From: Clostridia bacterium
GTDB lineage: Bacteria; Bacillota; Clostridia; Peptostreptococcales; Acidaminobacteraceae
NCBI GenBank assembly: GCA_016938815.1
Contig: JAFGTX010000195.1
Coordinates: forward strand, 1-56,181
Direction: 5' to 3'
DNA: 56,181 bases
The notes beneath the pieces are model-generated. The model ran no database searches and had not been told where the DNA came from. It saw only the letters and a program-made list of their open reading frames with translations. The number at the start of each line of letters is the position of its first letter. Position 1 is the first letter of the stretch. Position numbers and translations under genes: made by a program. This document shows, piece after piece, positions 33,371 to 37,298 of this stretch.

Positions 33371-34090
33371 TTACATCAATTCACGTAAAGCGCTTTTGCT
33401 TTTAATCAAAATACGCTTCGTACCAATCAACTTAATCAATCCCATTTCTTCGAACAATTTTAGTTTTCTCGTAACGGTTTCTCTGGCAATACCTGCATAA
33501 CTCCCCATCTCTTCTCTATTGATGGTCAAACTGAGCAAAATACCCTGATCCGTTTTTTCACCAAAATCCTTCATCAGGTTTAGAAGCAAGCCAGCCACTT
33601 TAGCATCAGAACTATTGGTGCTCAAACGCTCCACCAAACTTTCTGCCTTTCTAATTCGTTCGTAGGCCTTTTCAAGTACTTTAAGTGTAATTTCTGGATG
33701 CGCTAGGATAATACTATCAAACGCACTTTTTTCAAGGGTGCTAATCGATGTATCCTCTAAAGCTTCCGCGTCAAAATCAAATTCATCTTCCTTCAGAAGG
33801 TTGAATCCGCCAATGAAGTCTCCATCTGCCAGAATATAAATGATCTGTTCTCTCCCATCAATGGTGTTTTTATAAATTTTCATTTTTCCGCTACAGACAA
33901 TATACAATCTGTCCGCTTTTTCACCTCTAGAAAAAATCTTTTCACCTTTTTTATATTCAATCGTATGGACACCCTTTGAGATTTCATGAAGCATCATCTC
34001 ATCCAAGCTGGATAGCAAAGGAATTTTGCCCATACAAAAATCGCGTTCACATTCACTGCACATATTTTTATACAACTTACAACTTACCAT
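33371..34090 (-). CDS. Crp/Fnr family regulator with N-terminal cysteine cluster
   Basis: About 239 residues. The N-terminus has four cysteines, C4-x6-C11-x2-C14-x4-C19, of the kind that bind an iron-sulfur cluster in FNR-like sensors. A cyclic-nucleotide-binding-like beta barrel (IFSRGEKADRLYIVCSGKMK) and a long dimer helix follow. The C-terminal helix-turn-helix has the recognition helix GIARETVTRKLKLFEE. RETVxR is the CRP type (TGTG half-sites), unlike VETISR of E. coli FNR. The ATG at 34090 is favoured by AAAGGTGA upstream; a GTG at 34108 would add six residues. It lies next to pflA/pflB, whose promoter bears a matching palindrome. Confidence 0.9.
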   Translation of the reverse strand: MVSCKLYKNMCSECERDFCMGKIPLLSSLDEMMLHEISKGVHTIEYKKGEKIFSRGEKADRLYIVCSGKMKIYKNTIDGREQIIYILADGDFIGGFNLLKEDEFDFDAEALEDTSISTLEKSAFDSIILAHPEITLKVLEKAYERIRKAESLVERLSTNSSDAKVAGLLLNLMKDFGEKTDQGILLSLTINREEMGSYAGIARETVTRKLKLFEEMGLIKLIGTKRILIKSKSALRELM

Positions 34091-34151: not shown

Positions 34152-34179
34152 TTAGCGTTATGAAAATTCATAACGCTAA
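34152..34179. repeat. 28-bp perfect palindrome between pflA and the Crp/Fnr gene
   Basis: Two perfect 13-bp arms, TTAGCGTTATGAA and TTCATAACGCTAA, are separated by AA. A terminator would need a T-tract, which is missing on both strands, so an operator or a processing/termination site of another kind is possible. It lies 5 bp after the pflA stop codon. Confidence 0.7.
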
Positions 34180-34183
34180 AATA

Positions 34184-34951
34184 TTAAACCGCACTTCTTC
34201 TGCTAATAGTTTTTCTGTCTTGTGATTTACTGTCTTCCAGCAAACCTCTAATATACGATTCATAAAACTTTGCTGCTTCTGTATCCATTTCCGGTATATC
34301 TGCCATCGGGTCTACCATGCCCAATTGCGTATACTTCTCGACACCTAGCTTATGATACGGTAAAATCTCGATTTTTTCAACCAGTTTTGCGTATTTCTCA
34401 ATGTGATGGAATAATTGATCCATACTCTCCTTAGAATCCGTCAACCCTGGCACCATCACATGTCGTAGCCATAATTTCACCTTATGCTCCTCAAGATATG
34501 ACAAAAACTTCAATAGCCCGTTCATACTTTTGCCTACCAATTTCTTGTGGGCAAGGTCATCATAATGCTTGATATCCAGCAATACTAAATCGACTAGAGG
34601 CAATAAAGCCTTATAATAGCTTTCATCACCATAACCACTAGTGTCCAAGGCAACATGGATACCTTCCGCTTTTAGTGCTTTAATAGCTTCAATCAAAAAT
34701 GCACTTTGCAAAAGCGGTTCTCCACCGGAAAAAGTCACACCACCACCTGAAACGTCATAATATCTTTTATAGCGCTTGATAAAGTTCACCAGTTCAGAAA
34801 CGGTGTAACTTTTGCCACCACCACAATTCTGTGTATCAGGGTTGTGGCAGTAAGCGCATTTAAGTGGACAGCCTTTTAAAAAGACCACTGTCCGAATGCC
34901 CGGTCCATCGACGAGGCCCATGGTTTCAATCGAGTGAATGTTTCCTGTCAT
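34184..34951 (-). CDS. pflA: Pyruvate formate-lyase activating enzyme
   Basis: A radical SAM enzyme that installs the glycyl radical on PflB. It has 255 residues. The cluster motif C-x3-C-x2-C is in GCPLKCAYCHNP at about residue 28, and GGGVTFSGGEPLLQ is the glycine-rich SAM segment. It starts 2 bp after the pflB stop codon, so the two are co-translated. Confidence 0.96.
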   Translation of the reverse strand: MTGNIHSIETMGLVDGPGIRTVVFLKGCPLKCAYCHNPDTQNCGGGKSYTVSELVNFIKRYKRYYDVSGGGVTFSGGEPLLQSAFLIEAIKALKAEGIHVALDTSGYGDESYYKALLPLVDLVLLDIKHYDDLAHKKLVGKSMNGLLKFLSYLEEHKVKLWLRHVMVPGLTDSKESMDQLFHHIEKYAKLVEKIEILPYHKLGVEKYTQLGMVDPMADIPEMDTEAAKFYESYIRGLLEDSKSQDRKTISRRSAV

Positions 34952-34953
34952 TT

Positions 34954-37203
34954 TTATGCCCTTTCATGGAATGTTCTAGAAATAACATCCCTCTTTTGCT
35001 CCTCTGTCAGTCTATTGAAGTGTACGGCATAACCCGATACACGAATCGTTAATGTTGGATATTTTTCCGGATGTGCCATAGCGTCAATCAAGAGGCTTCT
35101 GTTGAAGACATTGACGTTCAAGTGGAAAGCACCATTTCCGAAATAGCCATTCATAATGGATACAAGATTGTTGACCCTTGTATCAACTTCTTTCCCAAGT
35201 GCGTCCGGCACAATGGAGAAAGTATTTGAAATACCATCTTGGCAAATGTCCTTGTATGGCAATTTTGCCACTGAGTTGAGCGATGCTAACGCACCGTTGA
35301 CATCACGGCCATGCATTGGGTTAGCACCTGGTGCAAATGGTTCGCCGAATTTACGGCCATCCGGTGTACTACCTGTTTTCTTCCCATAAACCACGTTTGA
35401 TGTAATCGTCAATACAGAAAGTGAATGTAAGGCACCTCTGTATGTCGGATGCATTTTCAAGTTGTTGCTGAATTCTGTTACCGCTTCAATCGCTAAAGAA
35501 TCCACTGCGTCATCATCGTTACCGAATTTAGGGAAATCACCCTCAATATCAAAATCGACAGCAATACCATCTTCATTTCTAATCGCAGTCACCTTCGCAT
35601 ATTTCATAGCACTCTTGGAGTCGGCAATAATAGAAACGCCCGCTACACCAAATGCCATATAACGTTTGACGATGCTATCATGAAGCGCCATTTGTCCTGC
35701 CTCATAAGCATATTTGTCGTGCATATAATGAATCGTGTTCATCGTATCTACATAAAGGCCTGCTAAATAATCTAACACCTTACTGAAATTGGTCATAACC
35801 TCTTTGTAATCGAGCACATCGCTCTTAAGGGCCGGAATACCATCAACCACTTTAACCGGTTTACCATTTTTGTCTTTCTTCACTTCGTCATATCCGCCGT
35901 TGATTGCGTATAGAAGTGCCTTTGGCAAGTTGGCTCTCGCGCCAAAAAACTGCATCGCTTGGCCGATTTCCATTGCAGATACACAACACGCAATACCGTA
36001 GTCGTCACCGTAAAGTGGACGCATCAAGTCATCGTTTTCGTACTGGATGGCGCCTGTTGCAATCGACATTTTACCACAGTATTTTTTGAAGCCTTCCGGC
36101 AACGACTCTGCCCAAAGTACCGTCATGTTCGGCTCTGGTGCGGCACCTAAATTCGTCAATGTATGCAGGAATCTGAACGTCGTCTTTGTAACCAACGTTC
36201 TACCGTCTTGACCCATACCACCTAGAGCCTCTGTGATCCAGTTTGGATCACCTGCAAACAATTCATCGTACTCAGGCGTTCTTAAATGTCTCACCAACCT
36301 CAATTTGATCACCAATTGGTCAATAAGTTCTTGTGCCGTTTCTTCTGTCAAAATGCCTGACTCAAGATCCCTTTCAATGTAGATATCTAAAAATGCCGTA
36401 TTACGGCCAAGTGACATGGCTGCGCCATTGTTTTCTTTTACCGCTGCCAAGTAACCAAAATAGAAGAATTGAACAGCTTCTGCCGCATTCTTCGCTGGTT
36501 TTGAGATATCGACGCCATAGCTAGCAGCCATTGCCTTAATCTCAAGTAAAGCTCTCAATTGCATTTTTACTTCTTCGCGAAGCTGGATACGCTCTTCTAC
36601 AGCAGCACCTTTCAACACCGTTACAAGGTCATGTTGCTTTTGTGCATAAAGATAATCAATACCGTATAATGCAATTCTTCTGTAATCGCCAATGATTCTT
36701 CCTCTACCGTAAGCATCAGGCAGACCCGTCAATAAGCCTACGGTTCTCGCCGTCATCATTTCAGTCGTATAGGCATCGAAAACACCTTCGTTATGTGTCT
36801 TTCTAAAGCCTTTGAAAGCGGCTTCCAGTCTTTCGTCCATCGTTGCGCCATAAGCATCTAGTGAACCTTCTACCATACGGTAGCCCCCAAAAGGATTCAC
36901 AATACGCTTAAGTGGCTTATCTGTCTGTAAACCGAAAATTTTCTCTTCTTCTTTCAAAATATAACCCGGCTTGTAGTTGTTTATACCGGAAAAAATCGTC
37001 GTATCAATTTCAACTTGACCATGCTTTATTTCAGAAGTAATCAACGCTTCCGCCGATTCCCATACCGTCTTGCTGCTTGCGGTGATATCCGCTAAGAAGC
37101 TCTCATCGCCTTCGTATGGTTTGTAGTTTTTCTGAATAAAATCTCGCACATTGATTGTTTCATTCCATGATCCCGTTGTAAACTTTTCATATGCAGTACT
37201 CAT
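34954..37203 (-). CDS. pflB: Pyruvate formate-lyase (formate acetyltransferase)
   Basis: A glycyl radical enzyme that cleaves pyruvate with CoA to acetyl-CoA and formate under anaerobic conditions. Its 749 residues are standard. The catalytic cysteine pair lies in [12 protein letters not shown] (about 405-406), and the radical glycine in [10 protein letters not shown] close to the C-terminus (about 722). The ribosome binding site AAGGAG lies 7 bp before the ATG. The promoter region carries a Crp/Fnr-type palindrome. Confidence 0.97.
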
Positions 37204-37251
37204 TTATTTTCTCCTTTATGTCAAACAGTTATTGTTTATTATTCGAAACTC

Positions 37252-37298
37252 ATTATAGACGTTCGCCAGACAATAAAATGTGATTGAACGCACATTTT
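37252..37298 (-). promoter_or_regulatory. pflB promoter with Crp/Fnr-type operator near -41.5
   Basis: On the minus strand the -10 is TATAAT (37252-37257). The perfect inverted repeat AAAATGTG / CACATTTT (37275-37282 and 37291-37298, 8-bp spacer) is centred at 37286.5. With a start predicted 7 bp after the -10 (about 37245), the centre lies at -41.5, the classic class II activator position. A canonical -35 is missing, as expected for activator-dependent promoters. Confidence 0.75.

Follow-up and report, generated by a model that had tools for sequence, protein, structure and literature searches.

A CRP-type operator and a linked Crp/Fnr regulator as a probable iron-sulfur switch for pyruvate formate-lyase in Clostridia

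The window, meaning the whole 56,181-nucleotide stretch of DNA analyzed here from a Clostridia bacterium (contig JAFGTX010000195.1), carries three consecutive minus-strand genes: pflB (34954..37203), encoding formate C-acetyltransferase (pyruvate formate-lyase, PFL); pflA (34184..34951), encoding the radical SAM pyruvate formate-lyase activating enzyme; and, as the third gene of the operon, crp (33371..34090), encoding a 239-aa regulator of the Crp/Fnr family. The product of pflB exceeds the TIGR01255 cut-off (1168 bits against 994) and matches PF02901 and PF01228, and that of pflA exceeds the TIGR02493 cut-off (283 bits against 232). The regulator scores above the cut-offs of PF00027 (75.5 bits) and PF13545 (55.1 bits), which places it in the Crp/Fnr superfamily, and its structure model has fold matches to CRP, FNR, and FixK2. 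Because the three genes share a strand and are separated by mostly short gaps, they are likely transcribed together. The 93-base gap between pflA and crp contains a perfect 12-pair hairpin that lacks a T run (34152..34179, minus strand; fold z-score, −4.28), and no terminator was called in this gap; the hairpin may determine how much regulator is made relative to enzyme.

The gene order is widely conserved. Among 60 relatives searched, close orthologs of the regulator (55 to 68% identity) were found in 17, and in all 17 pflB and pflA directly precede the regulator gene. The same order was found in 30 of the 31 loci of named genomes with at least 54% identity, the lone exception being that of C. 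ganghwense (L102). The named genomes compared include Fusibacter, Acidaminobacter, Acetoanaerobium, Tindallia, Anoxynatronum, Clostridium tepidiprofundi, Tissierella, and others. No earlier description of the pflBA-crp pairing was found in openly licensed papers.

Upstream of pflB lies a perfect inverted repeat, AAAATGTG-N8-CACATTTT (37275..37298, assigned to neither strand), centered at 37286.5. The −10 box of the pflB promoter, TATAAT, is located on the minus strand at 37257-37252, with 29.5 bp separating its first base from the center of the repeat. With the transcription start predicted from the −10 box at 37245, the repeat is centered at about −41.5. The hexamer at −35 to −30 reads CATTTT and has no match to TTGACA. 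The sequence-only reading had described both an 8-bp palindrome 41.5 bp upstream of the predicted pflB start and a missing −35 box, and both descriptions were borne out. The predicted +1 base is C in the window, whereas 38 of 41 homologous promoters have a purine at this position; the true start may therefore be 37244. The zero-mismatch pattern AAATGTG-N8-CACATTT occurs once in the window and once in the 3,215,692-base genome, both matches being the repeat at 37275-37298, and the six matches with up to three mismatches in the window are at the level expected by chance (6.15).

To characterize the operator across species, 41 pflB loci located beside a related regulator were compared, comprising the window, 3 relatives, and 37 named records. 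The set contains 34 distinct 16-mers, and the regulator gene is convergent in one locus (L133). The best TGTG-N8-CACA-like site was picked blind to the −10 box, and the best −10 box was then sought over 17 offsets. Although the two elements were picked separately, the offset between them was exactly 29.5 bp in 39/41 loci, while the distance from the site to the start codon varied about threefold (56 to 166 bp). GTG and TCAC were fixed in the aligned profile of the 41 footprints, a full conservation that is partly selection because the scoring favored these bases, whereas the fixed −10 offset is free of such bias; A or C follows GTG in 40/41 footprints. A joint search for WGTGM-N6-TCACW and a −10 box at the fixed offset recovered 41/41 regulator-adjacent pflB promoters, compared to 14/8,200 shuffled sequences, and found no such pair in 19 pflB promoters of relatives without a close or adjacent regulator ortholog. 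The earlier pairing of a CRP-type operator at −41.5 with the neighboring regulator is upheld by this difference (41/41 versus 0/19). Because its spacing to the −10 box is fixed while the start-codon distance varies, and because a −35 box is missing, the site is a predicted class II activator site, with the position resting on the predicted start and the offset seen in 39/41 loci. The operator and the regulator may have been inherited together as a block, which would count against the preferred reading given below. In six pflB promoters without a linked regulator (L198, L199, L201, L212, L213, and L214), a different inverted repeat, AGTGG-N6-CCAC, is found 108 to 223 bp before the start and is possibly the site of another regulator.

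A genome scan for further copies of the palindrome near other anaerobic genes, as the sequence-only reading had proposed, did not reveal a regulon: the perfect copy is single, and the 193 matches with up to three mismatches are near background (154 for the reversed pattern). Adding the fixed −10 box made the scan specific, with 24 matches in 61 genomes compared to 2 for the reversed pattern. Thirteen of the 24 were pflB promoters. The rest comprised, among others, hcp and operons that adjoin a sister Crp/Fnr gene and encode a RIC/ScdA-like di-iron protein and a flavodiiron protein (these product names were assigned by reading translations). In the window's own genome, the pflB promoter and one doubtful site gave the zero-mismatch matches to the site and −10 box; the switch thus seems local, serving its own operon. 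The doubtful site (L153, C158:2220-2262) lies ahead of a response regulator gene, pairs TGTGAAGTTCCTCACA with an equally spaced TAAAAT box, and may be a chance match or a second target. In three relatives (L178, L184, and L190), sister Crp/Fnr regulators with an FNR-type C117 are divergent to RIC/ScdA-like/flavodiiron operons that carry the same TGTGA-N6-TCACA site and an identically spaced −10 box; these operons are a probable NO/O2 defense regulon. Elsewhere in the window's own genome, a near-perfect AAATGTGAGATATCTCATATTT palindrome (L024, C253:3455-3476) lies immediately ahead of the likely ATG start of a gene for a YeiL-like Crp/Fnr paralog, and autoregulation of this paralog is possible.

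The recognition helix of the linked regulator reads R203-E-T-V-T-R208 (33467..33484, minus strand), as previously described, and includes the equivalents of R180 and E181 of CRP-type helices. The identity of these two residues is correlated with that of operator bases 3 and 6, and the RE pair is tied to TGTGA (PMC1274295). Of the Crp/Fnr paralogs that were found in the window's own genome, none but the linked protein carries RE in its recognition helix. Given these residues, the linkage, and the co-occurrence of site and regulator, the linked Crp/Fnr protein is the likely binder of the operator.

The regulator has four N-terminal cysteines, C4, C11, C14, and C19 (codons within 34034..34081, minus strand). 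C11, C14, and C19 are nearly invariant among related regulators and form a conserved core, C11-x2-C14-x4-C19, in which, as in FNR, three N-terminal cysteines share one loop. Because this motif is nearly invariant, the N-terminal cysteines likely hold an Fe-S cluster. C4 is shifted by some positions in related regulators, or absent. The four N-terminal cysteines had been proposed as the cluster set; all are present, and the core of three stands, but C4 drifts and C66 (codon at 33893..33895, minus strand) had been overlooked. In the pfl clade, C66 is present in 31/31 proteins with N-terminal cysteines, and 29 of these 31 lack a cysteine at position 117. Outside this clade, C66 was found in 0/39 proteins with N-terminal cysteines, and the members of other clades with at least three such cysteines have Cys117 in 36/36 cases and Cys66 in none. 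Thus, C66 or C117 is present in 70/70 proteins with N-terminal cysteines, while the next most common cysteine column has 7. In an alignment with FNR and CRP references from the MG1655 record, position 117 corresponds to C122 of E. coli FNR and position 66 to FNR R72; the window protein has S117 and no cysteine after C66, hence no C-terminal cluster of the B. subtilis type. C66 would thus be the best candidate for the fourth ligand, fitting far better than C4, with C117 in this role in the sister clades.

These patterns suggest that the fourth ligand moved from C117 to C66. The deepest branch of the pfl clade (L094, C. tepidiprofundi) has both cysteines. Single-sequence structure prediction of the regulator gave no usable model (pLDDT, 39), while a 10-row model of moderate confidence (pLDDT, 74) places residue 66 in strand 61-67 and residue 117 in strand 114-120, two strands that should be adjacent in a CRP-type beta-roll. 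An independent-pair test of cysteine covariation had one usable pair, and the change to C66 is essentially one evolutionary event. The odds seem about even for a fuller history, in which a clostridial FNR lineage with CRP-type reading moved its fourth ligand from C117 to C66 on a probably neighboring strand, via a both-cysteine intermediate such as L094, while becoming a dedicated pflBA autoactivator, and some descendants then shed the N-terminal cysteines while retaining the promoter.

Ten related proteins lack the N-terminal cysteines, among them the Peptoniphilus and Fenollaria types, L106, L130, L132, and L136. Most of them also lack C66, which L132 and L150 retain. Those linked to pfl (L106, L130, L132, L136, L147, and L150) form a natural comparison set for the role of the cysteines. 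Since these cysteine-lacking regulators beside pflBA retain both the operator and its spacing, the promoter design appears to outlive loss of the cluster cysteines, and the promoter alone would be no proof of O2 sensing.

From sequence comparison of the operon, the operator, its fixed spacing, its co-occurrence with the regulator, and the conservation of the cysteines, we infer binding by the regulator, activation, a cluster, a ligand role for C66, and an O2/NO signal. With a probability of roughly 75%, the palindrome would be the only operator of a dedicated Fe-S switch for pflBA that activates its own expression. A dimer at −41.5 that replaces the −35 box is the standard class II arrangement, which makes activation the natural reading: the regulator dimer would bind TGTGM-N6-TCACA in place of the −35 box and recruit RNA polymerase to TATAAT. 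As the operon includes the regulator's gene, activation would raise its expression together with that of pflB and pflA, yielding a positive loop. Activity of the regulator would probably require an FNR-type [4Fe-4S] cluster with C11, C14, C19, and C66 as its ligands. Oxygen cleaves PFL, and PflA is a 4Fe-4S enzyme; with such a cluster, production of both would depend on anoxia and on the supply of Fe-S, so that an enzyme killed by oxygen and its Fe-S activase would be made only without oxygen (or NO) and with working Fe-S assembly.

The palindrome could instead be a site for the NADH/NAD+ repressor Rex, a gene for which (PF06971) is present in the same genome. The Rex site of S. aureus, TTGTGAA-W4-TTCACAA, contains TGTGA-N6-TCACA, and pflBA is under Rex control there (PMC2883068). 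We nevertheless consider this very improbable, since neither TGTGAA nor TTCACA, the Rex flanks, occurs in any of the 41 footprints (TGTGAA-N4-TTCACA, 0/41), the window site fails to match 5 of the 14 fixed bases of the Rex consensus, and the fixed position at −41.5 without a −35 box suits an activator. Matches to the clostridial Rex consensus were close to background in number (48 versus 41), and the site tracks the linked Crp/Fnr gene. It is similarly hard to credit that another Crp/Fnr paralog is the main occupant of the operator, with the linked protein secondary. Several such paralogs are encoded in the genome, and in relatives this type of site also serves sister regulators located next to RIC/flavodiiron genes, but no paralog found has RE in its recognition helix (in an assembly that is 94.7% complete, so that a missing paralog is conceivable), and the presence of the site follows the linked gene (41/41 versus 0/19). 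A cAMP-CRP reading was rejected because cAMP-pocket residues are missing: at the position of GEL...RSA in CRP, the window protein reads FIGGFNLLKEDEF-DFDAEA, with the contact E and R replaced.

A further alternative accepts the linked protein as the activator of pflBA but gives it a signal other than O2/NO, such as a small molecule bound in the beta-roll, or zinc or thiol/disulfide chemistry at the cysteines. The cysteine-lacking relatives that keep the operator imply that activation is possible without a cluster, disulfides could form via C4 and its shifting equivalents, and the regulator model matches CRP-type folds as well as FNR. Still, the replaced cAMP contacts and the close parallel between C-x2-C-x4-C plus one beta-roll cysteine and the C-x2-C-x5-C plus C122 of FNR make this alternative unlikely. 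The preferred reading remains the Fe-S switch, and an oxygen/redox sensor that combines CRP-like specificity with an N-terminal cluster, as the earlier reading had it, is likely, but the combination is common to a wider clostridial family.

An N-terminal cluster is in itself already known, being the classical arrangement of E. coli FNR (PMC4214427), so the contrast that the earlier reading drew with B. subtilis Fnr would not by itself make it new. A 2026 structural review places the cluster of Gram-positive FNR at the C terminus (PMC12937710). What appears to be new is that a widespread clostridial clade joins CRP-type reading to FNR-type cysteines, that this combination is dedicated to pfl, and that a ligand seems to have been relocated. 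If true, FNRs with an N-terminal cluster and CRP-type sites would be common in Clostridia, and in a broad group of strict anaerobes the pyruvate formate-lyase genes would come with a probable iron-sulfur switch protein of their own, making an oxygen/Fe-S switch that lends itself to direct testing. The natural series of C117, both, C66, and neither would represent a metal-sensing site that was moved or lost while the promoter it served stayed unchanged.

E. coli FNR acts at anaerobic promoters including pfl. The window regulator resembles it in this link, in its Crp/Fnr fold, and in its N-terminal C-x2-C-xn-C motif, but scores only 78.5 bits against the curated E. coli Fnr model NF008365 (cut-off, 228). 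FNR holds its N-terminal [4Fe-4S] by C20, C23, C29, and C122 (PMC4214427), whereas the window protein has S117 at the last position and C66 as the proposed substitute; FNR reads TTGAT-N4-ATCAA and is global, whereas the footprints here are WGTGM-N6-TCACW and the regulator is operon-bound. E. coli CRP is close in its helix (RETVGR versus RETVTR), in TGTGA-N6-TCACA, and in the class II position at −41.5, but the window protein lacks the cAMP-pocket residues of CRP and has N-terminal cysteines. The site type of B. subtilis Fnr is also TGTGA-N6-TCACA, and the window protein, like it, is a Firmicute regulator of the Crp/Fnr type with a probable redox role. However, B. subtilis Fnr uses the C-terminal cysteines C227/C230/C235 and Asp141 (PMC3520743), whereas the window protein lacks C-terminal cysteines; Crp2, an ortholog of B. 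subtilis Fnr, likewise has a CRP-like site (PMC1274295). S. aureus Rex acts at a TGTGA-N6-TCACA-containing site before pflBA (PMC2883068), as the window operator is placed, but is an unrelated repressor whose flanking AA/TT bases are absent from all 41 footprints. HcpR of Desulfovibrio, an FNR-like regulator of anaerobes, has wTGTGAnnnnnnTCACAw sites (PMC1274295) but controls hcp/frdX, whereas the window regulator is linked to pfl. Sister regulators whose genes adjoin those for RIC/flavodiiron proteins or hcp share the DNA site type of the window regulator and have C117 instead of C66.
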